From positions 1-64,000 of the forward strand of contig LUUF01000019.1 in assembly GCA_001644045.1 (NCBI GenBank): a stretch of DNA of 64,000 bases. Reading direction: 5' to 3'. This DNA is from Methylomonas methanica. Lineage in GTDB: Bacteria > Pseudomonadota > Gammaproteobacteria > Methylococcales > Methylomonadaceae. Shown here one piece after another: positions 10,765 to 56,539 of the stretch. The notes under the pieces are model-generated. The model was not told the origin of the DNA. It saw nothing but the letters and a program-made list of their open reading frames with translations, and ran no database searches. The position numbers were made by a program, and so were the translations under genes. Position 1 is the first letter of the stretch. The number at the start of each line of letters is the position of its first letter.

Positions 10765-10768
10765 CGAA

Positions 10769-10780: not shown

Positions 10781-10796
10781 CAATTATTTTTACATT

Positions 10797-11267: not shown

Positions 11268-11353
11268 CGAGTACCGAAATGTTCATACGTTTGAGGTGAA
11301 GCGCACAATGATCTCTGGGCAATTACTTAAGTGGGCCTCTAAAAATAAAAACA

Positions 11354-11445
11354 CCTCCTTCTCCCCCCGGGAGAAGGTTGGGATGAGGGAATTAAAATCA
11401 ATTACTTACCCCCCTCACCCTAGCCCTCTCCCGGAGGGCGAGGGA
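11354..11445. repeat. Palindromic intergenic repeat (SPLPEGEG-type)
   Basis: Two related arms in opposite orientation surround an AT-rich centre (AATTAAAATCAATTACTTAC). The left arm has CTTCTCCCCCCGGGAGAAGG then TTGGGATGAGGG; the right arm has CCCTCACCCTAGCCCTCTCC then CGGAGGGCGAGGG. This matches a repeat found in many proteobacterial genomes, recognisable when translated as SPLPEGEG. Its right end supplies the purine-rich GGAGGGCGAGGGA just before the ytcA ATG. Confidence 0.7.
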
Positions 11446-11709: not shown

Positions 11710-11724
11710 AAGCGGCGGTGCCTG

Positions 11725-12882
11725 ATGGAAAACAGTCAAAACGATAGCCGAGGATTAAGCCTGCAAAATCGGATGTTGCTCGGTCGTATCATCGGTATTG
11801 TCATCGTGCTGGGTGCGGTGGCGACCGGCTCGCTGGTTTGGCATATCAATTATCAAAATCCGCGCACCAACGACGCGATGGTGAGGGCCAACATCGTCGG
11901 CATCGCGCCGGAAGTCAGCGGCCGCATCGTGGAACTGCATGTCGAAGACAATCAGTATGTCAAACAGGGCGATTTGCTGTACGTGATCGACCCACGCCCT
12001 TATCAGGCCAGATTAGATAAAGCCAAGGCCGAATTGCTGCTCGCGGAAAAAGATGTCGATTCCCGGCGCGCTTCCAGCGGTTCCGCCGAAATCGCTATCG
12101 AACGCCTGGAACACCAGCGTGCCGCCGCCAATGCCGAAGTGAAAAAAATCGAGGCGGAAGACGAATATCTGCATAACTATCTGGAACGCCTGGAACCCTT
12201 GGCGGATAAGCAATATGTCACCACCGATCAGCTCAAACAGGCGCGCTCGCGCTATGCGGCTTCGCGCGCCGAGTTGGCTGATGCGAAAGCTAAGGAGCAG
12301 TCGGCCCGTAGCGCCATCGAGGAAGCTAAAAGCGACAGCCGCCGGGCCATATCGTTAATCGCCCAGGTCGGCGACGTCAACGCCCGCATCGAAGTGGCCA
12401 GAGCCATGGTCACCGCCGCCGAACTCGATCTGGAATACTGTTATGTGCGCGCGCCGTTTAATGCTTACGTCACCAATTTGAATACCCGCGAAGGCGAATA
12501 TGCCAAGGCCGGCGCGCAAATGTTCGCCTTGGTCGACGACCGCCACTGGTATGTAATCGCCGACTTCAAGGAAACCTATTTGAAGTCGATCAAGCCCGGC
12601 CTGGAAGCCGAGGTGTTTCTGGTCGGTTATCCCGGTAAGCGCTATCGCGGCGTGGTCACCGGTATCGGTTGGGCCAATTCGCCCGACAATATCAAGCAAC
12701 AAGGCGTGTTGCCGGAAGTCGAGCGCACGCTGAACTGGGTGATTCTGGCCTCGCGTTTTCCGGTGCGGATCGAGATTGCGGAGCGCGACCCCGAGCATCC
12801 CTTACGCATGGGTATGACCGCGTTTGTCACGGTGCGGGAACGAAGTACCGAGGGAGCCGGTAAAGCCCTGCCGCCGTCATGA
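11725..12882 (+). CDS. HlyD-family periplasmic adaptor (MdtN/EmrA-like)
   Basis: A 385-residue membrane-fusion protein linking an inner-membrane transporter to the TolC-like channel. One N-terminal helix (about 12-34) is followed by the first lipoyl half (VSGRIVELHVEDNQYVKQGD, about 57-76). A helical hairpin coiled coil rich in Ala/Glu/Lys/Arg follows (about 92-215), then the second lipoyl half (RAPFNAYVTNLNTREGEYAK) and a beta-barrel domain. It starts 15 nt after ytcA and overlaps the FUSC gene by 4 nt (ATGA), so the three are translated together. Confidence 0.92.
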   Translation: MENSQNDSRGLSLQNRMLLGRIIGIVIVLGAVATGSLVWHINYQNPRTNDAMVRANIVGIAPEVSGRIVELHVEDNQYVKQGDLLYVIDPRPYQARLDKAKAELLLAEKDVDSRRASSGSAEIAIERLEHQRAAANAEVKKIEAEDEYLHNYLERLEPLADKQYVTTDQLKQARSRYAASRAELADAKAKEQSARSAIEEAKSDSRRAISLIAQVGDVNARIEVARAMVTAAELDLEYCYVRAPFNAYVTNLNTREGEYAKAGAQMFALVDDRHWYVIADFKETYLKSIKPGLEAEVFLVGYPGKRYRGVVTGIGWANSPDNIKQQGVLPEVERTLNWVILASRFPVRIEIAERDPEHPLRMGMTAFVTVRERSTEGAGKALPPS

Positions 12883-15146
12883 TCAACGGCGACAGCCGGC
12901 CCGTATCAAACTCGCAGCCAAAACGCAGCCGGCTTTGGTTTGGCACCAGCCTGGGGCAATTCCTCAAGGCAGAACTCAAAGACTCGCCGGCTCGGCGCGT
13001 CGCCGCTACCCGCCTGTTTGTGGTCACGCTGACCATTGTCCTCGTCAGCCAAACCCTGCATGTGCCGCCCTTGGGGGCAATTTCGGTACTGATTTGCCTG
13101 AGCTACGACGCCCACGCCAATGCCGGCCAGTCATTGGCCTTCGGCATGCGCCAGCTTGGCTATCTGATTGTGACGACTTTGGTGTCGGTATTGACGCTGA
13201 TGTTGGCCGGCAACGACCCCTGGTTGCTGTTGAGCTTATCTTTCGTCATCATGGCCTTGGCTCTATTTCACGCCCGTTTGATCGCCTGGCCTACCGGCAT
13301 TGCCCTGTGGTATTCGGTGGCGGTGCTGTACAGCCCCAGCACGCCCGATGAAAATATTTACCATGCCTTATGGAATATCCCCATTATCGGCGTACTGGCG
13401 CTGGGAACATGGACGGTAGTGCATCTGACCATCAAACCGCAAGATCCGCTGAAACTGTTAAAAGCGGAGATCGCCACGCAATTGGCGACGGTGGAATACA
13501 TCTTCAGTGTGCGTCTAGCCGATGCGGGTGCGCATAGCCCCAAGCCGGAGGCGCCCATGCATGCCGCTGCCGGCAGCCTCGGCAAGCTGCTGGGTTTACT
13601 GGCCAACGCCGAATTAATACATCCCGCGTTGCACGAACGCCACCAGACTTATCGGGCGCTGCTGCTGGAAATAGACGGTTTGCGGCAGTTGGCGGATTGG
13701 CTTAATCAGGTGCTGGCGGCGGAATATCGAGCCCAGCCGATGACGCCGGAAAAACTGCATGTCTACCGGGCTTTGCAAAGCGCCTGCGCCGAATTACGGC
13801 AAGGCGTGGCGGAATCGCGCGATGTGTCCGGGGAAATCACCAGCTTGTTAAGCGACGAGATATTGCAAAACTATGCGCGGGAAACCAATCCCTCGCTATT
13901 AACCGCCTTGTGGCGGGCTCTGCAACGCATTGCCGGGTTGACGCATGATTTGCATCAACCGATAGCCGCCAAAGACAGTAAAAACATCAACACAGAATCC
14001 GACGACAACCCGGAACATGGCTGGCTGCCGGCCTGGTTTGCTTACGAGTTTTGGGCAACCCATGCCGACAGCGTGCAATTCGGTATCAAATTCTCCCTGG
14101 GCGCGATCCTGTGCATGCTGATCGTGGAAAGCCTGGGCTGGCCCGACATCAACACCGCGATTCCCACCTGTCTGGTCGCGGCGCAAACCAGTCTCGGCGC
14201 CGACTATCGGCTCTCGCTATTGCGGGTGTCGGGCGCCGCCGTCGGCGGAATCTGCGCTTACTTTTACGTACTGGTCTTTCAATCTCAGCTCGATACCATC
14301 GTCGGCTTTGCGTTTGCAACAGCGCCATTCTGGGCGCTGGCAGCCTGGATTACCGCCGGCAGCGAACGCATCGCCTATCTGGGCCGGCAGCTTGGTTTCT
14401 CGTTTGCATTGTTTGTGCTGCATGATTTTGGTCAAGTCACTGACCTGTATCTGCCGCGCGACCGGGTCATAGGTATTTTGCTCGGACTCATCGTGATGGG
14501 CGTTATCGATTACGCGCTGTGGCCGCGGCGCTCGATTGCACTGGCCCGCCACCACGGCGTAGCGGCCTTGCGCACACTCGCCAGCTTCACCAAGCGCTTA
14601 CCCGATGTCAGTCACCTGCTGACTTACACTTTACCTTTACGGCTATCGGCGGAAAAAGAGCTGACCGCCGCTCAAGACTTATTGGCTCACGCGGTATTGG
14701 AACCCGATGCGCGCTTGGTCGAGAAAGTTCACGAACGGGCTACGCTGAGAGCAGTTGTCAAGGATGCCAGCCATTTATCGGGCTTGTTACAAGTCCGGAA
14801 ACGTTACCGCTTACTCAGCGGCCAGCGCTTCAGTCATTTTCCCGATGAATTGCAACAACTCAGCCGGGCGTTCGATGCCGAGCTGGCAAACGCCCTGGAA
14901 TATGCCGCAAGACTTCTGCAAGGCGAACAAGCCGGCAACCGGAGCGAGCTTGCCAAGCATCAAGCGGATCTACAGCAAAGCTATAGCGATCATCATCGTA
15001 TCGACAATCTGGCCGACGATCTGGCTGTGGAATGGGAACTACGCTTTATGCTGGACCAGCAAATCGTGGAGCTGATAGAAAACATCGAAAAAACAGCACT
15101 GGATTCAATTTCATATCCTCGAAAATACGCTCCCAATATTGAATAA
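12879..15146 (+). CDS. FUSC-family inner-membrane efflux protein (MdtO/AaeB-like)
   Basis: A 755-residue protein with two membrane bundles. The first (about 44-185) and second (about 385-530) are each followed by a cytoplasmic helical domain, the FUSC/YccS arrangement. These proteins serve as the inner-membrane part of pumps for aromatic acids and related compounds. The start overlaps the adaptor stop (ATGA). It is the last gene of the efflux operon; the next gene is convergent. Length is typical (MdtO about 680, AaeB about 655), with a slightly longer C-terminal domain. Substrate not deducible. Confidence 0.88.
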   Translation: MINGDSRPVSNSQPKRSRLWFGTSLGQFLKAELKDSPARRVAATRLFVVTLTIVLVSQTLHVPPLGAISVLICLSYDAHANAGQSLAFGMRQLGYLIVTTLVSVLTLMLAGNDPWLLLSLSFVIMALALFHARLIAWPTGIALWYSVAVLYSPSTPDENIYHALWNIPIIGVLALGTWTVVHLTIKPQDPLKLLKAEIATQLATVEYIFSVRLADAGAHSPKPEAPMHAAAGSLGKLLGLLANAELIHPALHERHQTYRALLLEIDGLRQLADWLNQVLAAEYRAQPMTPEKLHVYRALQSACAELRQGVAESRDVSGEITSLLSDEILQNYARETNPSLLTALWRALQRIAGLTHDLHQPIAAKDSKNINTESDDNPEHGWLPAWFAYEFWATHADSVQFGIKFSLGAILCMLIVESLGWPDINTAIPTCLVAAQTSLGADYRLSLLRVSGAAVGGICAYFYVLVFQSQLDTIVGFAFATAPFWALAAWITAGSERIAYLGRQLGFSFALFVLHDFGQVTDLYLPRDRVIGILLGLIVMGVIDYALWPRRSIALARHHGVAALRTLASFTKRLPDVSHLLTYTLPLRLSAEKELTAAQDLLAHAVLEPDARLVEKVHERATLRAVVKDASHLSGLLQVRKRYRLLSGQRFSHFPDELQQLSRAFDAELANALEYAARLLQGEQAGNRSELAKHQADLQQSYSDHHRIDNLADDLAVEWELRFMLDQQIVELIENIEKTALDSISYPRKYAPNIE

Positions 15147-15157
15147 AAACAACTTTA

Positions 15158-15180
15158 ACTCGGTTGAAATAAGACCGGGT
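15158..15180. terminator. Possible bidirectional terminator
   Basis: ACTCGGT/ACCGGGT (7-bp stem with one G-U pair, 9-nt loop) lies between convergent genes. On the minus strand it is followed by TAAAGTTGTTTTT. The T-run is imperfect, so support is moderate. Confidence 0.35.
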
Positions 15181-15183
15181 AAT

Positions 15184-16311
15184 TCAAAAGATGTCCATCT
15201 GAAAATCCAGGCTCCGTTCCGCTAACCAGACCAAAGCCACGGTAACGATAGAAACGGAACCTGTTTTCATCACTAGTACCGGATAATAACGGTAGCGGCT
15301 AAAGCCGACTATCAACGGCAAAGCCGCGCCGACAATCGCCAATTGACCCGCTTCCACGCCCAAATTAAAGCCCAATAGCGATAACATCCGCTGCGTATCC
15401 GGCAAGCCCATGTCCAGCAACACGCTGGCGATGCCCATGCCGTGAATCAAGCCGAAACAGAAGGCAAACCAGGTGCGGCGTTTTACCAAGACCGGATAAA
15501 TATTGTTCAACGCCGCCAACGCCACGGAAGCGGCAATGGCCGATTCTACCCAGCGGGACGGCAAGGAGATGTAGTGCAACACGGTCAAACTCAGGGTCAG
15601 CGAATGCGCCAGCGTAAAGGCTGTGACCACGCCCAGCACATCGAAAAATACCGGCTTAAAGCCGGATTTTGGCTGCCACTCGGCGTTATTCCAGATTAAA
15701 GCCGCCGGCAACAACAGGCTCAGCAAAAACAGCATATGGTCAAAGCCTATCCAGATATGCCAAATACCTTCGTAAGCAAAATCGGTCAGCGCCCGCCATG
15801 CAGAGTGGCCTGCGCTGAATGGAAACTGTATTTGTTGGCGGTCGGGGCTAAAGATCGCCGTTTCGGTAAGGCCTTGGTGGATCAGGCTTAACAGCCCGCG
15901 ATGCTGCGGGTCGAAATCGAAAAATAAGCGGTAAGCTATCGACAACGGTGCGGAGACGGATGGACAGATTGCCTGAAAATTTAATACTACGTAATGGCCG
16001 TCGCTGTGTTCGTCCACCAGCAAGTCCGCTGCTTGCAGCGAACAGACTTGCTTACCCCTGGTCATTTCCAAACGACTCAGCGCATAGGCATAAACGACTT
16101 CCCGACTATTTCGCAATTCCGCCCAGGTGATATTGCCGTCGTCGTTTGCATCCAAGCCCAAGGCGTAATCCAGGTCGCGCAAGGCAATATCCCATTGCCC
16201 GGTGATTTGCCGGTCGTCGACACGCACAGTCAAGTAGCTATCGCTGGGCTTGTGAGCTAAGGAATTAAAACTTACGGCCAGCAGCCAGATCGTTACTATC
16301 AGCCTGGTCAT
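15184..16311 (-). CDS. HupE/UreJ-type membrane protein
   Basis: A 375-residue protein with a signal peptide and a periplasmic N-terminal half (about 20-175). The membrane half (about 180-370) carries HupE/UreJ_2 hallmarks: FDHMLFLLSLLLPA, HSLTLSLTVL and FCFGLIHGMGIAS with conserved His. Classical HupE and UreJ handle nickel; members fused to a periplasmic domain, like this one, have no proven substrate. Its ATG overlaps the TPR gene stop (ATGA). It is last in a row with DUF4331 and TPR proteins, a combination seen in other proteobacteria. Confidence 0.82.
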   Translation of the reverse strand: MTRLIVTIWLLAVSFNSLAHKPSDSYLTVRVDDRQITGQWDIALRDLDYALGLDANDDGNITWAELRNSREVVYAYALSRLEMTRGKQVCSLQAADLLVDEHSDGHYVVLNFQAICPSVSAPLSIAYRLFFDFDPQHRGLLSLIHQGLTETAIFSPDRQQIQFPFSAGHSAWRALTDFAYEGIWHIWIGFDHMLFLLSLLLPAALIWNNAEWQPKSGFKPVFFDVLGVVTAFTLAHSLTLSLTVLHYISLPSRWVESAIAASVALAALNNIYPVLVKRRTWFAFCFGLIHGMGIASVLLDMGLPDTQRMLSLLGFNLGVEAGQLAIVGAALPLIVGFSRYRYYPVLVMKTGSVSIVTVALVWLAERSLDFQMDIF

Positions 16312-45241: not shown

Positions 45242-47629
45242 TTAGGTGTTGATATCAAAACCTATCGCCTGCCGGTGTTTCTCCCAGGTGTTATCCAGCA
45301 GCAGGAAATAACCGAATAGCTGGTACTGATAGTCGGCCGGGTCGGTGGCCGAGTGAAACGGCACCAGCAAAGCGGTAGAATAAATCAATTGCCCCAGAAA
45401 CAAACCCTCGGCAATTTCTACCAACTCATCCAGACAGGTGCCGATCGGCGCCAGCCCGCCGATCAGCGGATAGCGGTAATGAAACTGAAATACTTTCTTA
45501 GGCTTATCCGGGCCGTTGTTCATCGGCAAGATCGACTCCCTATCGTCCACACCCAAAAAGCTATAGCCCTGCCTTACAAACGGCGACGGTCCGGCATCGG
45601 CTAATTGCTGTATGGATGGCAGCGGCGGATGGTAGTTCATATCCAAGACCCGGAACAAGGCGTCGGTCGGCAGGATGCGCGAGTCCTGGATGTTATTGCC
45701 GAATAGCCAATGCTCTGCAGCCTCCCGTTCCCAGAAGGCCTTGTCGGTTTTCGACATGCCTTGGTCCCAACTGCCGCTGCTCAGATGTTTGGCGTAAACG
45801 CCCGGCTGTTGCCAATAATGCTCGCGGTTTTTCTCGACCAGGGCGTAATGCGGAAAGCTGGCCGGATGGGCTTTCAGTTCTGCGACCCGCTCCGGATAGC
45901 GCTGGGCCAGATCGTCGCTTTCGTCCAGCAGCATGCTCAATTTACGGCCGCTGATGCGTTCGAAAGACTTGCCGGCCCACGGAAAAATAAAGCGGCCGAT
46001 ATTGGCCCACACCGCATTCAGCAAATTAGGCGCGCGCGGATCGTTTTGCAGCTTGTCAGCCAATGCGGCCGGAATCATGCTGTGTTCCTGCAAAGAGCGG
46101 GCGATGTTGGCGATAAAACTGTCGCCAAAGCCCCAATGCAAATTCAGCGTGGCACCGTGGTAATAATCAAAGCCGTTGCACGGATCGCTCTGTTCATACC
46201 AATCGCGCGCTTCGGGCGCGTCGAAACGGGTGTTGTAGCCTCTACCCTGCCCTTGAAACACGCCATCGACAATGCCGGGCGCAACGCCGGCGCGAAACAG
46301 CCGATTCAGCACTTCAAAATGCCGCAGGTGATCGTCAAAACCGCTGGCCGCGGAAATTTTGCCTTGTTGGCGCTGCAGCATCTGCAAAATGGATTCGCCA
46401 GGTTGCAGTAACTCGCGGACATCGCCATCGTCGTCTTTTGGCGACGCTTCCAGGCAAAATGTCGTGAATTTACGCTGCAACTCCGGATCGTCGCGCCAGC
46501 CATTGACCCAATCCACACCATCGGGTGCGGCGCCAGGTTTGGTGGTTCTTGGTTTGTCGTAGCCCAATTCCTTCCAGCCGCTCTCGCCGGGCCGAGGCCG
46601 TAAATTGGGGAAGGCTTCGTCCGCAAACGCCTCGCGAGCGCGAGCGGTATCTATCATCAAAAAGAAGCCGTTATTTTGATAGCCGTAATCGACCGAGTTA
46701 TCGCCGGTATACGCTTCGCCCAATTCCCACTCCGGCGGATGATCGCCGAACAAGGGAATCTGTAACGTGCCCAAACTGTAATGATGGGTGGCCATGACCA
46801 ACTGGCCCAAATAGACGCCGTCTTCGATCTGCACTAACTCGTCGATAAGCCGCGTCATCGGAAACGCCGGATGCAGATCGTGCCATCGGTAATTAAGCTG
46901 ATAAACGGCTTTGCCGTTCATCTCTCCAACCACGGATTTGCCAGGCAAAGACAGGAAAATCCCGCCGGTTTTCACATACGGAATGGCTTTTTCCTTGGCC
47001 AGATTTTGCGCAAGCAATTGGCTATCGAAACCCTGCGCGTTGGTATCCAACGGCCGGTCACGCAAATTCCAAAACTGGGTCAGCACCGGCATGCCTAAGC
47101 TTTGAATGAAATTAGGATCGTCAGGCTCGCGGAAAAAATTCCGGCCGATGCGCGCCACCTCCGGATCGTAATTAAAGATCGCGACCGGGTCGTGGCCGCA
47201 TTTGGCGGCAAACACCTCTTTAGCCACCGGCTCAAACGTCTTGCCCATCCATAACCCGGTACTGGCGTAGGTGACATTCCACAGCGTCGCCATCCATTCC
47301 AGATGCGCCAGCATCGAACGGTTTTCGCCGTGTTTCTTGGCGGCTTCCTTAAAATAATCACTATCGCGGATGGACATCGACACGCCTATCATCGGCCCAT
47401 CCAGTGGCGTACTAGTGCCGCACTTGAACAGGATCAGCAGCTTTTCGTGAATACCCTCCCATTCCTCGCGGCGCAGATTGTCGCCCAGAATCTTGCGATA
47501 ACTGCCGAGCATAGGCAACGCGCCGCCTTTAAGATCGTTGGCGATTATGGCGTCGAGAGCGGTAGCCAGCGCTTGCTGTTCTTGCTCCGACGCGGTTGGG
47601 AAATTGGCGACATTGAGATAGTTGTTCAT
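45242..47629 (-). CDS. Two-half internally duplicated protein, function unknown
   Basis: A 795-residue soluble protein without signal peptide. The two halves are related. Residues 242-280 (VYQLNYRW..IDELVQIEDGVYLGQLVMAT) match 713-752 (VFQFHYRY..LDELVEIAEGLFLGQLIYST). GLWMGKTFEPV (about 126-136) matches FPWAGKSFERI in the second half. Each repeat thus has a W-x-GK(T/S)FE element followed by a Y-R...DELV...LGQL element. I recognise no catalytic family. GGGGAAGGACC precedes the ATG. It is the last of six close-spaced genes headed by a glycyl radical enzyme. Confidence 0.7.
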   Translation of the reverse strand: MNNYLNVANFPTASEQEQQALATALDAIIANDLKGGALPMLGSYRKILGDNLRREEWEGIHEKLLILFKCGTSTPLDGPMIGVSMSIRDSDYFKEAAKKHGENRSMLAHLEWMATLWNVTYASTGLWMGKTFEPVAKEVFAAKCGHDPVAIFNYDPEVARIGRNFFREPDDPNFIQSLGMPVLTQFWNLRDRPLDTNAQGFDSQLLAQNLAKEKAIPYVKTGGIFLSLPGKSVVGEMNGKAVYQLNYRWHDLHPAFPMTRLIDELVQIEDGVYLGQLVMATHHYSLGTLQIPLFGDHPPEWELGEAYTGDNSVDYGYQNNGFFLMIDTARAREAFADEAFPNLRPRPGESGWKELGYDKPRTTKPGAAPDGVDWVNGWRDDPELQRKFTTFCLEASPKDDDGDVRELLQPGESILQMLQRQQGKISAASGFDDHLRHFEVLNRLFRAGVAPGIVDGVFQGQGRGYNTRFDAPEARDWYEQSDPCNGFDYYHGATLNLHWGFGDSFIANIARSLQEHSMIPAALADKLQNDPRAPNLLNAVWANIGRFIFPWAGKSFERISGRKLSMLLDESDDLAQRYPERVAELKAHPASFPHYALVEKNREHYWQQPGVYAKHLSSGSWDQGMSKTDKAFWEREAAEHWLFGNNIQDSRILPTDALFRVLDMNYHPPLPSIQQLADAGPSPFVRQGYSFLGVDDRESILPMNNGPDKPKKVFQFHYRYPLIGGLAPIGTCLDELVEIAEGLFLGQLIYSTALLVPFHSATDPADYQYQLFGYFLLLDNTWEKHRQAIGFDINT

Positions 47630-47686
47630 GGTCCTTCCCCCTGTGATTGTTATATTTTTGGCTTAGGCCGGACGTATAAGCCCCGC

Positions 47687-48550
47687 TTAAAAGCCTTGTT
47701 GTTTTAGGTCTTTGACGATGTCGCGGTACACCGCCGGAATATCGAAATGCGTCAACAGCACGCCGCGATAGTCCACCAAGTCGCCATGCGACAAGCCTCG
47801 GTCCGGATTGCTATCCCCTATCAAGCCGCGAAACCGGCCCCACTGGCAGGATAGCGTGGAGACCATGCCGTCGTTGTCGCCTTCCATGCGCTTCAGCAAC
47901 ACTTGCGTCGCGGCAAACACCGGGTCGTCGATAGGCCGACGCATCAAGGTGCCGTAGCTTTGGTAGTACACGCCGGGCATATCAGACACTTGTCGATTAA
48001 ATTCCGCCAGATAGGAACGCGTCAGCTGTTTGATTGCCATGCCGGCTTGCGGGCTTTTGTCGCCGGTGATTCTGGCCAGAATGTCCATCGCACCGAACCC
48101 CAATCGCTGCGCCAGGCGTTTGAAGAAATTTATGCTCAGCAGGTTTTGCGTATCGGGAATGTCGCCGGCTACCAGATCCGCCACGGCGGAACCATGATGC
48201 GGGGTGCAAACCGTGGTCAAGCTGGCCACCTTATCGGCCATATCCAGTTTGGAAATCAGATAACGCGCTTCCAGGCCGCCCTTGGAATGGGCGACGATAT
48301 TGACCTTTGCCGCTCCGGTCTGGCTGAGTATTTGCTCAATATTCGGCTTTAACGCGAGCGCGCTGTTTTCATGGCTGTTCCAGGCATCCAGGCCGCCCTG
48401 AAACACCCGGGCGCCGGCGGCCTCCAGGGCTTTAGGAATCCGCCCCCAGGAATTCAGCATCAGCAAGTCGTCTCTATAACCTACGCCATGTAACAAGACG
48501 ATAGGGTATAGCGTCCGGCACGATAGCTCGGCTGCGATGTTGGCGTTCAT
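47687..48550 (-). CDS. Lipase-like alpha/beta hydrolase
   Basis: A 287-residue hydrolase with the lipase oxyanion motif LLHGVGYRD (19-27) and nucleophile Ser89 in VAHSKGGLEA. Asp and His probably come from the C-terminal part (SHGDLVDYRGVLLTHFDI). The layout matches bacterial triacylglycerol lipases of the LipA/EstA group, but no signal peptide is seen, so it likely works in the cytoplasm. GGGAG precedes the ATG. It lies 22 nt downstream of the DUF6765 gene, within the GRE operon. Confidence 0.82.
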   Translation of the reverse strand: MNANIAAELSCRTLYPIVLLHGVGYRDDLLMLNSWGRIPKALEAAGARVFQGGLDAWNSHENSALALKPNIEQILSQTGAAKVNIVAHSKGGLEARYLISKLDMADKVASLTTVCTPHHGSAVADLVAGDIPDTQNLLSINFFKRLAQRLGFGAMDILARITGDKSPQAGMAIKQLTRSYLAEFNRQVSDMPGVYYQSYGTLMRRPIDDPVFAATQVLLKRMEGDNDGMVSTLSCQWGRFRGLIGDSNPDRGLSHGDLVDYRGVLLTHFDIPAVYRDIVKDLKQQGF

Positions 48551-48572
48551 GGCAAATCTCCCGGTTATCGGC

Positions 48573-49631
48573 TCAGCCCGCGCAAATACCGTACTTGGGC
48601 AAAATATCGTGCAGTACCGTCAAACGATGCAATTGCAGCGCGTCGTGAAACAACTTCCAATTGCTGCGCAAAAATTCCGGCGTGTATTTATGCACGCGTA
48701 TATCCCAGCTGCTGCCCAGCGCTTTTTCCTTCCAGGAATTGGCACCTTCGGCGGCATAGCTGATCTCGGCCGTACCGAAGCTGAACTTTTCGCCTTTGAA
48801 GCCATTCTTGACGATCTCCAGCCATTTCGCATGGCGGGCTTTGTCTTCTTTGATCTTTAAATCAAGAAAGATTTTTTCCAGCAGCGTTTTGTCGGCGGTC
48901 GGCAGTCCACTCTGCGCTTTACCCAAATATTGCTGCATGACTTTACACATCGCGTCCGCGGCCTTACAAAAATCTGCGGGATTATCGCGATCGCCCCAAA
49001 CACCGCGACCGTTCCGATACTGCCAATGTAAAAACGGCAGATCGGGAAAATCCTTGGCGCGGCCATGGCCCAACGGCGGAATCACATCATCCAGCAAATC
49101 CTCCAGCACATGCTGCAGCTGTTTGCTGTACATGCCGGAACTGGTGAGCTCCCGGGCATGCTCCACGTTATTGATTTCATGTATTACCCCGGCAAAGCCC
49201 TGGTGCGACCAAGTATCGGCATACACATGCAAGGCTATCCCCAGCCGATGCAGACTGTACGGTTTGCCTTTATCGTCGACCGCCGCCTGCACCATCTCCT
49301 TGGCCGGCGGACTGTCCGGCAGGCAGACGATTTTTTGGATAAAGGTGCCGTCCGGATCCTCGCCCGGCCCCTTGTCGCCGTTACCCGGCAGAAAATGAAA
49401 CGGCAACCAAATCAAGTGGTTGTAATCATTGTTCAAATTGCCGACATCGGTACTTTTATGCGAGGAATGTATCCGCGCATAAAAGGCATCGTTGTCGAAA
49501 TGCACGACGCCTTCGCTGACGGCGTCGTCCACGTATTGCGCCGAATAAGCAATGATGTCGGCTTCCCGGTGAGCGAACCCGGCCGTGCGGGCGGTAACAT
49601 AAGTGACGGCGTGATGAAAATCGGTTTGCAT
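48573..49631 (-). CDS. DUF6765-family protein
   Basis: A 352-residue protein starting at MQTDFHHAV, fixed by AAGGAGATTCATC; a longer frame upstream lacks support. His-rich motifs, DFHHAVTYVTARTAGF (3-18) and HRLGIALHVYADTWSHQGFA, fit DUF6765, whose His/Asp pattern resembles zinc-dependent phospholipase C and P1 nuclease folds. A phosphoester hydrolase role is plausible but unproven. It sits between the GRE activase (17 nt) and the lipase-like gene. Confidence 0.72.
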   Translation of the reverse strand: MQTDFHHAVTYVTARTAGFAHREADIIAYSAQYVDDAVSEGVVHFDNDAFYARIHSSHKSTDVGNLNNDYNHLIWLPFHFLPGNGDKGPGEDPDGTFIQKIVCLPDSPPAKEMVQAAVDDKGKPYSLHRLGIALHVYADTWSHQGFAGVIHEINNVEHARELTSSGMYSKQLQHVLEDLLDDVIPPLGHGRAKDFPDLPFLHWQYRNGRGVWGDRDNPADFCKAADAMCKVMQQYLGKAQSGLPTADKTLLEKIFLDLKIKEDKARHAKWLEIVKNGFKGEKFSFGTAEISYAAEGANSWKEKALGSSWDIRVHKYTPEFLRSNWKLFHDALQLHRLTVLHDILPKYGICAG

Positions 49632-49648
49632 GATGAATCTCCTTGAAA

Positions 49649-50545
49649 TCAGCTGGCCTGCAAGCAATCGATGCAGTGTTCGATCTCGGTATCGCTCATG
49701 AATGCGCTGTGCCGATACTCGACATCGATACCAAAGCGCTGCAGCTTGTCCAGCCATAATGGGTTATAAGGCAGGGCACTGACCTGCTTGATCCGGTGCT
49801 CCCGTAAAAACCGGGCTATGCCGCACAGGTTTTCATCGGTAGCGGTAATATTGGGGATCAATGGAATGCGGACCTTGACCGGAATCTCGGCGCACTCGGT
49901 CAGGCGCAACAAGTTGTCCAAAATGGGCCTATTGGAATGGCCGGTGTGCTGGATGCTGGCGGCTTCGTCTATCAGTTTTAAGTCGAAATAGATCAAATCC
50001 AGCCAAGGCAACAGCAAGCGGGCGAAGCGCCCAAAATTGAACATGCCGTTGGTTTCGATGGCGGTACGAATGCCGGCGGCTTTCAGTTTTTTGAAAAATT
50101 CGTGCAGAAAACTCATCTGCATCGTGCATTCGCCGCCGGATGCCGTAACGCCGCCGCCGGTGGCGTCGAAAAAGGGTTTATCGATGGCTACCCGGTAAAA
50201 CAGCTCGTCCACGCTCAGCCATTGGCCGACCTGCTCCAAGGCATGCCGCGAGCACACCGCCGCGCAGCGTCCGCATTGATCGCAACGTTCCCGGTCAAGC
50301 CGCAGTTGCCGGTCCCGCAGGGTTAAGGCTTTGGTTTTACAGGCCTTGATACAAGGCCGCTCGCAGTCGTCCGGATGACATAACTCGGCACGAAAAGATA
50401 GGGATGGCCCCGAAGCTATGCCCTCGGGATTTTGACACCAACTGCAACTCAGCGGACAGCCTTTGAAAAACACCGTGGTACGGATGCCCGGCCCGTCCTC
50501 GCTGGTATTGCGTTTGATATCGAAGATGTAGGCTTTGCTGTCCAT
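49649..50545 (-). CDS. Glycyl radical enzyme activase (radical SAM)
   Basis: A 298-residue PflA-type activase that generates the glycyl radical on its partner using SAM. The radical-SAM cluster is C30-x3-C34-x2-C37 (FFKGCPLSCSWC). Two extra ferredoxin-like clusters follow (CHPDDCERPCIKAC and CDQCGRCAAVC, about 56-110), as in activases of non-PFL GREs. The GGE-like ASGGECTMQ segment is present. It is separated from the GRE gene by one small gene and has the Shine-Dalgarno AGGAAG. Confidence 0.92.
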   Translation of the reverse strand: MDSKAYIFDIKRNTSEDGPGIRTTVFFKGCPLSCSWCQNPEGIASGPSLSFRAELCHPDDCERPCIKACKTKALTLRDRQLRLDRERCDQCGRCAAVCSRHALEQVGQWLSVDELFYRVAIDKPFFDATGGGVTASGGECTMQMSFLHEFFKKLKAAGIRTAIETNGMFNFGRFARLLLPWLDLIYFDLKLIDEAASIQHTGHSNRPILDNLLRLTECAEIPVKVRIPLIPNITATDENLCGIARFLREHRIKQVSALPYNPLWLDKLQRFGIDVEYRHSAFMSDTEIEHCIDCLQAS

Positions 50546-50560
50546 CTTCCTGCTCCATAT

Positions 50561-51214
50561 TCAGGCCGCTTTGGGAAGGTCCAAGGACAGCTGGATATCC
50601 GTGGCGATCGCGCCCAGTTTGAACAGATGACCGACGTGGCCGGTCAACTGCACCAAATTCTCCAGCAGCAAGCCGACAATATCCACGCCGGAACGGCCCA
50701 GCAAACCGATAATCGATTGCACGTCTTTAAAGCGCACCACCAAGTCCACCTGACTGGGATCGTTCTCAATTTGGTCGGCTTGGTCTTCGGTCAGCACTTG
50801 GGTATCGACCAACGCCAGCGAGTTCAGCGCTTGTCCGAATGGGGTCTTGATATACAGTGCCTCGGGATTCGGGCAGAACCTCAGCAACACGTTCATGTCG
50901 TCGCCGCGCCGGCTGGTGCGGATCAGAAACTTGCCTTGGTAGTAACGTTTACCACCGGGCACCATCGGATCGATGATGATGAAGTTTTCCTCGAAAAACG
51001 TGTTGGCCTTGGCGGCTTGCGCGGCATCCAGATGGCAATCGCGCAACAAATAGCCAAACCCCAAACGTAGCGCGACGGCCATGCCACTGGCCAGCAACCG
51101 GCCCTGGACTTTATCCAGCACAGCCGGCAGGTCGCCAGCCTGAGTCGCGGCCTTGGTGCCTAGCCTCAAGGTTTTTTGTAAATTCGGTAACAAAACGGGA
51201 AATCCGGCATGCAT
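50561..51214 (-). CDS. GRE-operon protein, possibly SCP2-like lipid-binding
   Basis: A 217-residue protein starting at MHAGFPVLLP (ATAGGAGAACTGTC precedes). The C-terminal part, VDLVVRFKDVQSIIGLL then LTGHVGHLFKLGAIATDIQL, looks like the end of an SCP2 sterol-carrier-type domain, which binds lipids or acyl-CoA. This is a pattern impression, not a firm match. It is placed directly between the GRE (13 nt) and its activase (15 nt), so it may present a hydrophobic substrate. Confidence 0.6.
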   Translation of the reverse strand: MHAGFPVLLPNLQKTLRLGTKAATQAGDLPAVLDKVQGRLLASGMAVALRLGFGYLLRDCHLDAAQAAKANTFFEENFIIIDPMVPGGKRYYQGKFLIRTSRRGDDMNVLLRFCPNPEALYIKTPFGQALNSLALVDTQVLTEDQADQIENDPSQVDLVVRFKDVQSIIGLLGRSGVDIVGLLLENLVQLTGHVGHLFKLGAIATDIQLSLDLPKAA

Positions 51215-51227
51215 GACAGTTCTCCTA

Positions 51228-54200
51228 TTAAATTGCGTTGAGCGTATGTTGCTCGGCGCCGGTGTCCAGGCCAAAATTGGCTCTTTGAATAATCTCTTTA
51301 CGCATCTGCGGGCTGAGCGTGACGAAATACGCCGAGTAGCCCGCCACGCGTATCATCAGATCCTTGAATGGTTCCAGGGCTTTATGCTCGGCCTCGCCGG
51401 CCCCGGATTGCCCGGCGGCCGTGGCGGCGCGGTCGGCGGCGACCAGATCGTTGATCGACGACACGCACATTTGCACCAATACGCCGTTTTGGTCGGCAAA
51501 GGCCTTCATATAGCGCGAGAACAACTCGGTATCTTCTTCGAAATGGCCGCGATCGCGGGTGGTCAAGCTGAGGTTGTAGGTATAGCCGTTCTGTACCGTG
51601 TTGGCGTTCACCGACGTCACGGACAGCATATGATCCAGCAAATTGACCGGCTCGCCGTTGGCTTTCACGACGCCGGGACACGGCGTGATGCCGCTGGCAA
51701 AGGATTCGCCGCTACGCCGGCCATTGGGTGTGGCCTTGGTCAACATCCCAAAGCCGGCATGATTGGTCATGCTCCAGTAACCCGGCAGATAGCGCCCGCC
51801 GCGATGAGTGCGGTATTGGGCGAACACTTCCTGCAACATTTCGGTCAACAAATGCGTGTATTTGACCGCCGTGGCGTTGTTATAAATGCCGCCGGGGGTT
51901 TGATCGACGCCGGCGCCGTATTTGGGGGCCAAACGCACCATTTCCTTGATTTGTTTTAAACGCTCCTTACTCAGATTGGGCAAACTGAGCGGCACATCTT
52001 CGGGATGCAACCAGTTTTGCACCCGCGCCAGAAATGCCTTCCAGGCGCTTTTGGGCTGTAGGGTGTTTTCGTCGAAATCGGCCTGCATCGCCGCCAGCAA
52101 TTCGCCGGCCGAGATTTTGCCGGCAAACACCAGGGTATCCAGCACGCAAAACGAGTCGATCACATCGGCCAAACCGATCACCGCAATGCCCGCTGAGTTG
52201 TATTTAGCGCCGCCGGCGGACACGTCGCGAAAACTGGCGCCGTCGCTGTCCGGCGTATTGGTGGGGCCAGTAAACAGCCCGGACAAAAACGGCGATTGCC
52301 GGGATTGTTCGTAGAAACGGCCGAAGTAATTGTTGCATTGCACGACATGCCGGGCCATTTCGTTCAGTTGAAATTTAAAGGCCTCGATAAACGCTTGCAT
52401 GGTGTCGATTGCTGTCAACGGCTGCGTGGTGTAACGCGCGTCGCCGTAAAACAGGTTTGGCGATTTCACCGCCACGCCGTCGCTACGGTGCTTGCCGCCG
52501 TATAAAGCCAGTTCCAATACCGCCGGCAGCACCATCAGTGTCGAGCCGGTATTGCCGTAATGTTTATGCGCGGCATTTTCTTCGATGCAGCCGATAGAAG
52601 TATAGTCATAGGCGTCGGCCAAGGCTTCTTCCGCACTAATGCCGGTGTGCGCGGCATAATAACTAGCCATGGCCGGGACCACCGCCGCGTCGCCATGTAG
52701 TGCAGGCGTGGCCCGGGTCAGAATATTGACCTGGCAGATGCGTCTTAGATAAGGGTCCATCACCTCGGTTGGCAGCGGCTTGCCTTGCGCGTCGCGGTGA
52801 TGCACATCGCGGTGATAGCGGGCGTGCACGTTCGGATCGCGGATCGACAAGATCTCCGTGGCTTTCAGAATGATATAGGTCATGTCGTTGACCGCATCGA
52901 CAACCTGGCTGTTTTCGTAACGGGTGCCGCCCACGGTCAGAGCCTGATTGGAGCCGCTGCCGGCGAACAGGGTTTCCGAACCGGACGTAGACAGCGGCAC
53001 ATGGTCGGAGCAATGCAGAAAGAAATGGCTAACCAGTTCCACCGCTCGGCGGCTGTAGTCGTCCTGCGCCGTGGCGCCATCCAGTTTCTGCCAATCGGCC
53101 AGATAGAACGGGTTGAGGATTTGATCCAGGCGGCCTATGGAAAAACCGAAATTGGTGTTTTCCTGCAGCAACAGGTGATAGCAAATCCAGACTACAGCCA
53201 GCGCTTCGTGCAAAGTTTCTGCGGGCTGCGCCGGTACCTTGCGGCAGATTGCCGCCAATTCTTGATTGCCGGCTTGCACGGCGGCCTCGGCCAGGTGTTG
53301 CGCATAAATTTTGGCGCCGTCGTATACCGCGATGACGCCTTCCAAAAATTCAATTTGCTGTGCCGTGGCCGCTACGCCATTGGCGATATCCTGTCTGGCC
53401 CGTTCGATTAGGCCATCGAAACCGTATTTCAACACCCGTTCGAAATCCGGCACTGTATGCGAAACGCAAGTGGCTTTGTCGGACAAGAAAAAGGCCACCC
53501 GTTCCATTAATTCCTGAGCTTTCGGCGTTTGCCCGGCTCTTTTACGTAACGGTGGATCAATGGAGGGTGGATAACTGCCGGCTACCCTGTCCCGATTTTC
53601 ATAGCCGGCGCTATCGTAATCGCTGTAACGCGCCAGTTCCTGCACCGGTTTTTGTTCCAACCAGAACGGAAAAATCTCCCGATTCAGGCGGTCGGCCACT
53701 TCCGGGCGAATCTTGAACGGATTTTGGGCGCGGGTGGTGACGGTTTTCAGTTCCGGCCAGATGCAATAACCGATGGTATCGGCGTAAACCACCGGACCGA
53801 CGAAGCTGGTGGCGGTTTGGCCGGGCAGTAGATCATCGGCTTTAACTATCGCGGTTTTGTTGGCAAAAATATGCTGCAGCGCTTTGGCGCGCCGGGTATA
53901 GGGCGGCAAGGCCTGATTCTCGGGCCGGCGCAAGAATTCGGTCAAAAGGCGCGGCAACTCGTCGCAAATCTCCGGAGTCCCTTCCGGCGCGAACAGCTTA
54001 TCGCGCCAGGCCTTAACGACCGGGAATTGTGCCAGCGTAATGTTGCGTAGCGCCAAATCCTTCAGAGTTTTAATTTTCTGGAAGTCTTGATTGGCGATGG
54101 GAAATAAATCGACTTTGCCGGAACCGGAACCCGGCACAGAGGGATTCTTGCCGAGTTCTACCGAAATACCGCCGTCGGATGATGGATATGGAACAGACAT
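51228..54200 (-). CDS. Glycyl radical enzyme of unknown substrate
   Basis: A 990-residue PFL-like enzyme, longer than usual (about 760-860). The thiyl site is Cys538 in SIGCIEENA, with Glu540 in the Cys-x-Glu arrangement used by dehydratases and lyases, not the Cys-Cys of PFL. The glycyl loop is RVAGYSAYF with Gly954, 36 residues from the end. GGAKYNSAGIAVIGLADVID and PNGRRSGESFASGI are standard GRE segments. About 45 extra residues (PKSAWKAFLARVQNWL region) precede PKYGAGVDQ, and the N-terminus is extended. ATG 54200 is fixed by AAAGGAG. The product should be oxygen-sensitive. Confidence 0.9.
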   Translation of the reverse strand: MSVPYPSSDGGISVELGKNPSVPGSGSGKVDLFPIANQDFQKIKTLKDLALRNITLAQFPVVKAWRDKLFAPEGTPEICDELPRLLTEFLRRPENQALPPYTRRAKALQHIFANKTAIVKADDLLPGQTATSFVGPVVYADTIGYCIWPELKTVTTRAQNPFKIRPEVADRLNREIFPFWLEQKPVQELARYSDYDSAGYENRDRVAGSYPPSIDPPLRKRAGQTPKAQELMERVAFFLSDKATCVSHTVPDFERVLKYGFDGLIERARQDIANGVAATAQQIEFLEGVIAVYDGAKIYAQHLAEAAVQAGNQELAAICRKVPAQPAETLHEALAVVWICYHLLLQENTNFGFSIGRLDQILNPFYLADWQKLDGATAQDDYSRRAVELVSHFFLHCSDHVPLSTSGSETLFAGSGSNQALTVGGTRYENSQVVDAVNDMTYIILKATEILSIRDPNVHARYHRDVHHRDAQGKPLPTEVMDPYLRRICQVNILTRATPALHGDAAVVPAMASYYAAHTGISAEEALADAYDYTSIGCIEENAAHKHYGNTGSTLMVLPAVLELALYGGKHRSDGVAVKSPNLFYGDARYTTQPLTAIDTMQAFIEAFKFQLNEMARHVVQCNNYFGRFYEQSRQSPFLSGLFTGPTNTPDSDGASFRDVSAGGAKYNSAGIAVIGLADVIDSFCVLDTLVFAGKISAGELLAAMQADFDENTLQPKSAWKAFLARVQNWLHPEDVPLSLPNLSKERLKQIKEMVRLAPKYGAGVDQTPGGIYNNATAVKYTHLLTEMLQEVFAQYRTHRGGRYLPGYWSMTNHAGFGMLTKATPNGRRSGESFASGITPCPGVVKANGEPVNLLDHMLSVTSVNANTVQNGYTYNLSLTTRDRGHFEEDTELFSRYMKAFADQNGVLVQMCVSSINDLVAADRAATAAGQSGAGEAEHKALEPFKDLMIRVAGYSAYFVTLSPQMRKEIIQRANFGLDTGAEQHTLNAI

Positions 54201-54646
54201 GTTCAATCTCCTTTACAACAGAGCGATCCCTCGAAAGCGTATGCCGACAGCTTGCGGCGTGATCGCCAGTTCCCTGCCCCGGCCATTTTTGTGATGTGCA
54301 TCTAATTATAGCCCATTCCTTATGAAACATAAGGAAATAAACCCGGCCAATTTCTTGTGTCTCGGCGAATGCATACGCATCTAACTGGGCCGAAATACGG
54401 AACCCCAAACGACGACGTTTATCTTCGTAAAACTTAAGAATTTATCTTGCCAGGGTATTACCTGAGCAACAGCGATAAACCAAATACTGCTCCATCCGCA
54501 ACATGTTGACCCGCGCCAAACCAGAGGAATCGCCGTTTTTTAGTTGGCATGGAATTTGAGAGAACTACATTGAGGCTCAGAACACCTCGATTCTCAGGAC
54601 ACTTTAATTGCATTCCACATTAAAAGATTTTACGGAGCAAAATCCT
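54201..54646. other. Divergent regulatory region, GRE operon / haloperoxidase
   Basis: About 445 bp without a supported gene. The main feature is the inverted repeat at 54316-54336. No convincing FNR box (TTGAT-N4-ATCAA) or sigma-54 promoter was seen by eye. Confidence 0.5.
54316..54336. promoter_or_regulatory. Hyphenated palindrome upstream of the GRE operon
   Basis: TTCCTTATG-AAA-CATAAGGAA is a perfect 9+9 inverted repeat with a 3-nt centre, about 116 bp upstream of the GRE start and 310 bp from the haloperoxidase start. It has no T-run, and its length fits a dimeric repressor or activator site. Confidence 0.55.
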
Positions 54647-56539
54647 ATGTCAACCAAATCGTTTCCCGCAAAAACCGCTGTATCCAACGTATCCGCATCG
54701 GACGACGGCCATAGTGCCGCGGACACCTCGGATGCAGGCGCAAGCAACATCAGCCGGCGCTCGTTTATCGGTCGGGCAGCCGTGATTTCCGCTGCAGGCG
54801 TGTTGGCGCCAACCTTACCGGCATCGGTTCAAGCGGCTGTCGGCCGGGGTCATTTTGACGATGACGACTCAATCCCCGAATCGCTCGGCCAAGATTTCTC
54901 AAGAAAATATCAACGCGATGTTTTCGATACGCTGCATAGCAAGGATTTGCGGAAAAAAGCCTTTAAAGCGCGGCTAAAATCCGCCGAAGCCGAATACAAG
55001 ATCGATATTCCGCCACAACCCAACAACGGCGACGAACTGCGCTATCCGAACAAAATCGCGATTTCCACGAAAGGCTTGCAACACGATGCGAACGGCCATG
55101 TGCAGCCCGATTCCTACGAGTCGTTTTTAAAAGCGCTAAAAACCGGCAAACATGAAGATTTTGAAAAAATCAAACTGGGCGGCACCACTAAATTAGCCGG
55201 TATCCAAGGGCCTTTGTCGGCCAGTCTTGAAGGCATCGCCAATAGCCAGCTGGCCATTCCGGAAGCAGCCCCGCTCGACAGTGCCGAGTTGGCCGCGCAC
55301 CACATCGAAGTTTATTGGCAGGCATTGTTGCGCGATGTGCCGTTCAGCGAATATCGCAACGACACCAATAACGAGTTGGTGCTGGGGGCTGTCGCCGAGT
55401 TGAACAGTCTGAAAGCCTTCAACGGTCCCAAAATCAATGGCAAAGTCACCCCCGAAACCTTGTTCCGCAGCACCGCGTCCTATGTCGATTACCAGGCTGA
55501 TCCGTCCGGCAAAAAAGGCAAATATGTCGTGCCCGACGGCACGCTGGATGGCCCATATATTTCGCAGTTTTTATTGCGCCCTATCCCTGCCTGGGGCACC
55601 ATCGCCAGCCAAGCTCAAACTCGCCCCATTCAAAAAGCCGGCGAGACATTTGGCGCCACCTATGAAGAATGGCTGGCGCTACGGAACGGCCAAAGCATAG
55701 GCCGCACCATTACCTTGGAATCGGGACGCCGGCACATTATCAATGGCCGCGATTTGGCCACATTGGCGCGCGGCAGCGGCCCTACTTATTTGCACGTGTT
55801 GCAAATACTTACCTCCGCACCCAATGCCAGCAACCCGCTGCTGGGCGGTGTCGGCGCACCGTTGAACCCGGCAAATCCTTATGTCAATTCCAAAACCCAG
55901 GAATCAACGGCGTCGTCTTTCAGCACAGCGTTCATCCAAGGCTTGTTGGCACTGGCCGGCGCCTATACCAACCGAGTGTCTTACTACCAAAACTGGTACG
56001 TCAATCGCCGCTTAAGACCGGAAGATTACGGCGGTTTGGTTCACAAAATTTTGGCCAACGGCGCCAGCTACGCTATCCATCCCGATATTTTAAATTCGGA
56101 AGCCGTGGCACGTATTTACAAGCAATACGGTAGTTATTTGCTGAACAGCGCCAGCAATGTGGGCGCCCCCACCCATCCGGGTTATCCAAGCGGCGCGACC
56201 ATCAGCGCGGCGACGCCTATTACCCTGTTGAAAGCGTTCTTCGACGAAAGCTATGTGATACCGAATCCGGTCGAGGTCGATCCTAACGATCCAACCAAGC
56301 TCAGACCTTACACCGGCTCGGAAAAACTCACCATAGGCGGAGAGTTGAACAAACTGGTCAACAACGTCGGTTTTGGCCGCAACTTTAACAATTTCCATAT
56401 TCGCGCTGACATTTCCGCTTCGCATAGCTTGGGCGAAGCGCTGGCGATCAGTCTGCTTAGAGATCAGCGTTACACCTACAACGAACCTTTCGATGGCTAT
56501 ACCTTTACCAAATTCGATGGTAGCAAGGTAACAATCTAG
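54647..56539 (+). CDS. Tat-exported vanadium haloperoxidase-like protein
   Basis: A 630-residue protein of the PAP2/vanadium-haloperoxidase superfamily. The Tat signal is SRRSFIGRA (36-44). Vanadate-binding candidates: RP in VNRRLRPEDYG (about 455), PSG in HPGYPSGAT (about 507-515), Arg about 586 and His about 594 in RADISASHSLGEAL. The usual PSGH acid-base His is Ala, so halide oxidation may be lost or altered. ATG 54647 follows CGGAG; a TTG upstream is less likely. It is transcribed away from the GRE operon. Folded export by Tat suits a cofactor enzyme. Confidence 0.82.
   Translation: MSTKSFPAKTAVSNVSASDDGHSAADTSDAGASNISRRSFIGRAAVISAAGVLAPTLPASVQAAVGRGHFDDDDSIPESLGQDFSRKYQRDVFDTLHSKDLRKKAFKARLKSAEAEYKIDIPPQPNNGDELRYPNKIAISTKGLQHDANGHVQPDSYESFLKALKTGKHEDFEKIKLGGTTKLAGIQGPLSASLEGIANSQLAIPEAAPLDSAELAAHHIEVYWQALLRDVPFSEYRNDTNNELVLGAVAELNSLKAFNGPKINGKVTPETLFRSTASYVDYQADPSGKKGKYVVPDGTLDGPYISQFLLRPIPAWGTIASQAQTRPIQKAGETFGATYEEWLALRNGQSIGRTITLESGRRHIINGRDLATLARGSGPTYLHVLQILTSAPNASNPLLGGVGAPLNPANPYVNSKTQESTASSFSTAFIQGLLALAGAYTNRVSYYQNWYVNRRLRPEDYGGLVHKILANGASYAIHPDILNSEAVARIYKQYGSYLLNSASNVGAPTHPGYPSGATISAATPITLLKAFFDESYVIPNPVEVDPNDPTKLRPYTGSEKLTIGGELNKLVNNVGFGRNFNNFHIRADISASHSLGEALAISLLRDQRYTYNEPFDGYTFTKFDGSKVTI

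Follow-up and report, generated by a model that had tools for sequence, protein, structure and literature searches.

What would a glycyl radical enzyme (GRE) do in Methylomonas methanica? Air destroys enzymes of this superfamily, and most of those known come from organisms that are anaerobic or facultatively so. The window analysed here, a stretch of 64,000 nucleotides (nt) of M. methanica (contig LUUF01000019.1), harbours six complete minus-strand open reading frames (ORFs; 45242-54200) with intergenic gaps of 13, 15, 17, 22 and 57 nt, and the ORF coordinates bear out this layout as described in an initial annotation. In order of transcription, the genes encode the GRE, an SCP2-like protein, the GRE activase (ACT), a DUF6765 protein, a lipase-type hydrolase (LIP) and a 795-residue protein (P795). 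What can defensibly be put forward as new, on the comparisons below, is a conserved module of GRE plus SCP2-like protein whose hosts are lithotrophs and methanotrophs (several are aerobic) and whose fused relatives occur in anaerobes; a literature search, most subscription journals being outside its reach, found no apparent description of such a module. Our preferred reading, tentative and given a probability of about 0.4, is that of a low-oxygen eliminase module that would act on a carrier-bound, hydrophobic or lipid-derived substrate.

Composition and distribution of the module

The genome's closest matches are Methylomonas (its GRE is 95% identical to that of Methylomonas sp. WSC-7), and the six genes keep their order and strand in all ten same-genus genomes of the sample with the GRE (the window and nine others); the gene set is thus not a product of chance. 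In a set of 301 genomes from the order, the window's own included, the same 13 carry the GRE (identity of 69% or more) and P795; P795 fragments alone (155 and 33 residues) were found in two further genomes, and distant GREs were weakly matched in nine further ones. Three other Methylococcales genomes hold GRE, SCP2-like gene, ACT and DUF6765 together with a divergent P795 (in one of them the module lies on two contigs), and the stretches fetched from these three showed no LIP. At least 20 same-genus genomes have neither a P795 nor a GRE match, and thus the module is accessory. In a phylum sample of 398 genomes, three carry the GRE, again including the window's own.

A scan of one genome per species, which depends on exact short peptide patterns and therefore gives a lower bound, yielded 72 loci (L058-L129): 48 of the module clade (L058-L105; GRE identity 54-95%) and 24 with distant GREs (L106-L129; 23-32%). 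Module hosts include Methylomonas, Crenothrix, Methylobacter, Nitrosomonas, Gallionella, Thiodictyon, Sedimenticola and other Gammaproteobacteria, anammox bacteria (Scalindua, Brocadiaceae, Anammoxibacter) and single metagenome-assembled genomes (MAGs) of other phyla; among the ammonia, iron and sulfur oxidisers and anammox bacteria that carry it, such an enzyme had not been expected. The 48 loci are not 48 independent genomes, as L099 and L103 lie on one chromosome and several loci repeat genomes also sampled under another handle (for example, L042/L100, L043/L064 and L046/L058). Many are MAG contigs, and odd single hosts (Sulfuricurvum, Acidobacteriota and a Desulfobacterales MAG) could be binning errors. 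Contamination is no explanation of the module itself, because several of the host records belong to named strains and carry no MAG label: Methylomonas methanica R-45363, M. fluvii EbB and M. koyamae SM2, and Nitrosomonas oligotropha Nm75 and Nm45 and N. aestuarii Nm36. Its presence in named Nitrosomonas and Methylomonas strains suggests oxygen-free radical chemistry in nitrogen- and methane-cycle bacteria that count as textbook aerobes, and cultured Methylomonas offers a concrete handle for deletion and lipidomics.

Across the 48 loci, many of them on contigs that end early, the SCP2-like gene was found in 41, ACT in 40, P795 in 31, DUF6765 in 26 and LIP in 4. Of the 39 loci with at least 1.8 kb downstream of the GRE, 38 have both the SCP2-like gene and ACT; the sole exception, L103, carries one half of a split GRE (the other half being L099); in L088, the activase is placed before the GRE. 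P795 is present in 23 of the 27 loci with 4 kb on both sides. The other four are L099 (its P795 is at L103), L088, L097 and L102, and P795 was not found in the whole genomes of the last three. When 20 genomes whose loci lacked P795, held part of it or left no room for it were searched in full, it was found in ten, those of L062 and L081 having divergent compact forms. The commonest order is P795-GRE-SCP2-ACT-DUF6765 on one strand; P795 comes last in Methylomonas, and a few loci reverse P795 or DUF6765. The core is therefore GRE, SCP2-like gene and ACT, usually with P795 and often with DUF6765. The initial annotation had staked its proposal on the partners being kept in GRE-carrying genomes, which holds for the SCP2-like gene and ACT, whereas P795 and DUF6765 are frequent yet not universal. 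Its six-gene system shrinks to at most five genes plus a lineage addition: within the locus stretches LIP was seen only in Methylomonas, so that it was rejected as a core part and looks like an addition of that lineage.

The split GRE gene belongs to a single Nitrosomonas MAG chromosome, on which its two parts are separated by over 200 kb (L099 10001-11695 and L103 10001-11395), with P795 beside the first part and SCP2-ACT-DUF6765 beside the last; this looks like a rearrangement or misassembly.

The glycyl radical enzyme and its activase

The GRE can start at an ATG at 54200, 7 nt after AAAGGAG, and has an in-frame TTG at 54206 as well, from which its residue numbers are counted here (992-residue form). 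It carries Cys540-Ile-Glu542 and a glycyl loop RVAGYSAY with Gly956, the Pfam Gly_radical match of the window protein being below threshold (18.8 versus 22.2 bits), and is the only PFL-family match in the whole genome at a threshold of E 0.001. In the alignment, Cys540 and Glu542 are found in all 44 module GREs and Gly956 in all 41 with data, and each of the 17 distant GREs aligned has the equivalent three residues. The catalytic Cys of the finger loop, a mark of the GRE superfamily, is present in each of the 44.

In a tree of 74 GREs, the 44 module enzymes lie on one side of a branch with full support in the Shimodaira-Hasegawa-like approximate likelihood ratio test (SH-aLRT), on a stem of 2.22 changes per column; the tree was built by a quick method with SH-aLRT only, midpoint rooting and long-branch warnings, and it omits rows shorter than 780 residues and all but ten reference GREs (YbiW, a GRE beside pduA/pduB, CutC, HypD, Escherichia coli formate C-acetyltransferase and five less defined ones). 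Against NCBIfam equivalogs with cut-offs of at least 994 bits, the window GRE and four other clade members reach at most 207: the models of trans-4-hydroxyproline dehydratase, sulfopropanediol dehydratase and indoleacetate/hydroxyphenylacetate decarboxylase gave 68-207 bits (cut-offs 1000-1150) and that of choline trimethylamine-lyase 200.8 (1050), while the broad PFL2-3 subfamily model gave 327 (678). With scores so far below the cut-offs, membership of any matched equivalog was rejected. By these comparisons the module GRE is a clade of its own, and its initial description as unassigned stands.

Genes of this kind tend to be annotated as pyruvate formate-lyase (PFL), and genome annotation may well label the present GREs so. 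PFL requires two adjacent cysteines; all 44 module GREs have Gly-Cys-Ile-Glu in place of the Cys-Cys pair, and the window GRE reaches 31 bits with the PFL model TIGR01255, whose cut-off is 994. An identity as PFL serving fermentation is thus contradicted by the sequence and its probability is next to negligible, even though the Pfam family name is PFL-like and a 'pyruvate formate lyase' is reported in Gallionella capsiferriformans ES-2 (PMC5178258), a candidate member of this family. Very improbable, too, is an enzyme of the X-succinate synthase type, which would join a hydrocarbon to fumarate and to which the SCP2-like protein would deliver that hydrocarbon. TutD (4pkc, 63 bits) and MasD (9o8u, 52 bits) are the weakest matches listed, but a hydrophobic carrier would suit a hydrocarbon, and 8iof, named benzylsuccinate synthase alpha subunit, reaches 139 bits, not far below the best GREs; this comparison consists of bit scores only, and the ORF lists had floors of 80-120 residues.

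A weightier alternative, though still somewhat unlikely, is a dehydratase or C-X lyase for small molecules, akin to glycerol/propanediol dehydratase or choline lyase, with the SCP2-like and other proteins as regulatory or structural helpers. The closest solved GREs are indeed PFL2, glycerol and diol dehydratases and choline lyase. With the PFL2/glycerol dehydratase-type enzymes (2f3o, 1r8w and 5i2a) the window GRE has in common the family, the Cys-x-Glu motif, the glycyl loop, a radical S-adenosylmethionine (SAM) activase and an equivalent of His250, whose aligned counterpart in diol dehydratase is the His of a Gly-His motif. It differs in a profile match of only 164-195 bits, in length (990 versus 776-843 residues), in its SCP2-like neighbour gene and in the substrate pocket: the His-Ser pair and the Asp 14 residues after the Cys, which are diol-binding residues of glycerol and 1,2-propanediol dehydratase, are replaced by Phe353-Gly354 and Gly554. 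With choline trimethylamine-lyase (CutC/CutD), Cys-x-Glu and a Thr 13 residues after the Cys (Thr553 here) are common, yet the CutC reference has Asp where the module GRE has His250. Identity to the plasmid-borne reference GREs listed is ~22-26%, scores lie far below the equivalog cut-offs, no family besides the module genes recurs in more than four of the 48 loci, and the SCP2 fusions described below point to a hydrophobic ligand. From this combination of motif and pocket we infer a radical eliminase with a new pocket.

The activase matches Pfam Radical_SAM plus Fer4 and exceeds the NCBIfam TIGR02494 cut-off (260.6 bits versus 174). Its radical SAM motif CxxxCxxC is intact in 54 of 54 activase rows, some of which come from the same genome, while the number of Cys in the 75 residues after the motif varies: 8-9 in 26 rows (Methylomonas, anammox bacteria and others), 3-5 in six (Crenothrix, Methylobacter and a Methylococcales MAG, each represented by two rows), two in one, and none in 21 (Nitrosomonas and others, ~250 residues long). 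The Cys-loss comparison sets L067-L075, L078, L079, L082, L085, L086, L090, L092, L098, L099, L102 and L104 against L058-L062, L083, L088 and L097. As far as Cys counts alone can tell, the auxiliary [4Fe-4S] clusters of the activase seem to have been lost stepwise. Such a loss, and the many aerobes among the named hosts, would suit an inactive GRE relict retained as a binding protein; given that no variation is seen in Cys540, Glu542, Gly956 or the core motif of the activase, we regard a relict as highly improbable.

The SCP2-like protein, its fusions and the proposed reaction

The label 'SCP2-like' of the initial annotation holds up at the level of predicted structure. The AlphaFold2 model (mean predicted local distance difference test score, pLDDT, 84) has UbiJ-SCP2 as its best Foldseek match (probability 1.00, E 2e-3, template modelling score by target 0.67), followed by alkylsulfatases and sterol carrier proteins; no Foldseek match had E below 0.001, a search of the PDB gave no sequence match, and Pfam SCP2 matched none of 22 relatives. 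The predicted fold is thus like that of UbiJ and sterol carrier protein 2, whereas the module protein is without a Pfam SCP2 match and linked to a GRE. Support for the SCP2 fold from the model is good, not overwhelming.

Evidence from outside the module clade connects this fold with the enzyme. Among 22 distant GRE rows, 15 have an N-terminal extension, homology to the window GRE beginning only at residue 146-263. Pfam SCP2 appears, sub-threshold, in the extensions of three of six fused GREs scanned, and a joint profile of the extensions aligned with the module SCP2 profile in hhalign at 93% (raw E 3e-7, 53 columns). These SCP2-like-GRE fusions (15 rows among L106-L119, L121 and L123) occur in Asgard archaea, Desulfobacterota, Bacteroidales and others, and in the tree the branches closest to the module clade are those of the fused enzymes (Lokiarchaeota, Jordarchaeia, Desulfobacterota and others). 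As in the module, an activase gene accompanies the GRE (10 of 15 fusion loci); unlike in the module, the SCP2-like domain is in one chain with the enzyme, identity is ~26-33%, and no P795 or DUF6765 match was found in the fusion loci. Because carrier and enzyme are fused in some genomes and encoded by neighbouring genes in others, a classic sign of joint action, the fusions are the best evidence that the two would work together, and the initial assignment of a lipid-carrier-type partner to the GRE gains ground from both fold and fusion. Between-locus distances of the SCP2-like protein also track those of the GRE most closely (Pearson 0.95), followed by DUF6765 (0.84) and ACT (0.79). Such a partnership, as separate gene and as fusion, would extend GRE chemistry to hydrophobic substrates.

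The neighbourhoods of fused GREs were listed for 14 distant loci, and ten neighbour proteins, from six loci, were scanned. An aldehyde:ferredoxin oxidoreductase adjoins the fused GRE in two of the 14, AMP-binding (acyl-CoA-ligase-type) enzymes occur in one locus and a TetR regulator in two. The oxidoreductase would be expected there if an aldehyde were made; the few cases are in keeping with an aldehyde product. In one of these neighbourhoods (L107 6524-18164, Lokiarchaeota), the aldehyde:ferredoxin oxidoreductase flanks the SCP2-like-GRE, with a pair of an FAD oxidoreductase-like and a ferredoxin-reductase-type protein on both sides (upstream by Pfam, downstream by eye). A Desulfobacterium MAG (L112) carries three similar ORFs of ~1000 residues in tandem on one strand (5753-8755, 9684-12653 and 12752-15721), of which the first two are GREs by Pfam and the second has a sub-threshold SCP2 match.

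UbiJ, the best structural match of the SCP2-like protein, has a part in ubiquinone synthesis, as has UbiT, and the module might by the same token serve an oxygen-independent biosynthetic modification of a membrane lipid, quinone or hopanoid, the SCP2-like protein acting like UbiJ/UbiT. The named hosts are mostly respiratory lithotrophs and methanotrophs, and by eye no module protein looks secreted. We consider this role unlikely, since the patchy occurrence in the genus, with the genomes noted above devoid of P795 and GRE, speaks against an essential lipid, and there would be no obvious need for DUF6765 and the lipase.

As for low oxygen, five of the 43 regions upstream of module loci contain a perfect TTGATNNNNATCAA (FNR box), each of them from Nitrosomonas (L068, L069, L073, L092 and L103), where it sits 137-248 nt before P795 and was reproduced in 0 of 100 letter shuffles in each of the five; these are related species, so that the independent cases are fewer than five. 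Six other upstream regions from Nitrosomonas or close kin have no perfect box. A neighbour gene of one family occurs in L068, L069, L092 and L103, and in L069 it is divergent and Crp/Fnr-type by Pfam. FNR and sigma-54 sites were sought in the Methylomonas upstream regions and none was found. The module is probably used by lithotrophs and methanotrophs at low oxygen, the FNR boxes pointing that way in part of Nitrosomonas only; the low-oxygen use foreseen in the initial annotation thus finds backing in some Nitrosomonas and none in this window.

Under the preferred reading, the activase would place a glycyl radical on Gly956, a step established for the GRE superfamily with its radical SAM activases. 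The radical would move to Cys540, which would abstract a substrate hydrogen, and with Glu542 as acid/base a neighbouring group (water, amine, alcohol or similar) would be eliminated to leave a carbonyl product; elimination is proposed because the Cys-x-Glu arrangement is common to dehydratases and C-X lyases. The SCP2-fold protein would hold or pass on substrate or product, a role suggested by its fold, by its constant linkage and by the fusions seen among related enzymes. P795 would probably be a second binding or scaffolding protein, DUF6765 might, on weak grounds, be a metal hydrolase that feeds the pathway, and Methylomonas would add a cytosolic-looking lipase.

Several points weigh against this reading. 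GRE pockets are usually small, and the SCP2-GRE distance correlation also reflects the shared ancestry of the loci. P795 was not found in ten of the 20 whole genomes searched, whose completeness is not stated, and of 33 loci that extend 3.5 kb downstream ten have no DUF6765 (one being the half locus L103), so that neither is essential. P795 distances track those of the GRE least (Pearson 0.66), and its model is poor (pLDDT 67) with no confident Foldseek match (best probability 0.41). For DUF6765, Zn_dep_PLPC (PF00882) was matched in 2 of 16 relatives, below the cut-off (best E 0.014), and the hhalign comparison with PF00882, from a poor alignment of five PF00882 hits, was negative. The window has no FNR box, its best site agreeing at 8 of 10 positions and being equalled in 15 of 100 shuffles.

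A bolder version, which we hold to be quite unlikely, would make this the first GRE system to act on a carrier-bound lipid, an oxygen-independent lipid lyase that cleaves, for example, the C-O bond of monoalkyl glycerol ethers. Elimination would split the ether into an alcohol and hydroxyacetone, after DUF6765 (with the lipase in Methylomonas) had stripped head group and acyl chain. Such a system would have common ancestry with the SCP2-GRE fusions of Asgard archaea and Desulfobacterota and aerobes that oxidise ammonia, methane, iron and sulfur would have acquired it to live where oxygen is at its limit. The related pathway of the initial annotation, in which a hydrolase frees a head group or acyl part for the GRE, is not supported, so that the annotation as a whole is partly supported: its observation is confirmed and its interpretation half right.

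Accessory proteins, promoter region and neighbouring genes

P795 was initially described as duplicated, which an hhalign comparison of its N- and C-terminal halves corroborates (probability 98.7%). In a Bryobacterales MAG the halves are separate ORFs (298 and 286 residues); a compact form of 622 residues occurs in a Planctomycetota MAG. Neither P795 nor the SCP2-like protein matched a Pfam family in the scan of window proteins, and P795 had no match by PDB profile. A likeness of P795 to DUF4334/GXWXG, by eye only, was rejected (hhalign at most 1.3%, with a small set from two or three hits). The DUF6765 protein is a member of its Pfam family over the cut-off, the sole one in the whole genome, and has many conserved His and Asp; it is possibly a metal hydrolase. 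Its reading as a Zn-dependent phospholipase C, and with it the lipid hydrolase of the initial annotation, would have as its sole functional hint the two sub-threshold matches, beside the failed profile comparison with its poor test set. LIP matches solved triacylglycerol lipases (E 9e-22). Elsewhere (L147 5304-8959), a DUF6765 gene occurs on a 14-kb stretch with no GRE or other module genes, near a GMC oxidoreductase gene whose product by eye resembles cholesterol oxidase.

Table 1. Genes of the module and features upstream of the GRE in the window
Feature	Position	Strand	Length and basis
GRE, glycyl radical enzyme	51228..54200	-	990 residues from ATG at 54200; Pfam PFL-like, E 8e-103
SCP2-fold carrier-like protein	50561..51214	-	217 residues; AlphaFold2 model and Foldseek
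GRE activase (ACT)	49649..50545	-	298 residues; radical SAM CxxxCxxC and ferredoxin-type insert, 8 Cys
DUF6765 protein	48573..49631	-	352 residues, His-rich; Pfam PF20551, E 8e-103
LIP, lipase-type alpha/beta hydrolase	47687..48550	-	287 residues; Pfam
P795, tandem-duplicated beta-rich protein	45242..47629	-	795 residues; duplication by hhalign
TATAAT, likely -10 element	54305..54310	-	upstream alignment: 9 of 10 Methylomonas, TACAAT in one
Inverted repeat TTCCTTATG-TTT-CATAAGGAA (9 bp), adjoins -10	54316..54336	-	upstream alignment
Conserved ~100-nt 5' leader of GRE	54201..54304	-	ten Methylomonas loci; AAAGGAG at 54208-54214

The inverted repeat beside the -10 element is a possible operator, although only its left half is well conserved in other Methylomonas. 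The leader matched no Rfam family above threshold.

In a plasmid collection no P795 match was found; 51 records carry a GRE, and the 40 listed are those for which the identity to the window GRE is given above. An Acinetobacter towneri plasmid encodes a GRE and activase pair (L159 2387-5762), with similar matches on Moraxella osloensis plasmids; both species are regarded as strict aerobes.

Divergent to the GRE, on the plus strand of the window (54608-56539), lies a gene for a 643-residue protein with a twin-arginine-type signal that is related to vanadium-dependent bromoperoxidases (E 1e-44); among nine same-genus loci compared, this gene arrangement is found in L054 only.

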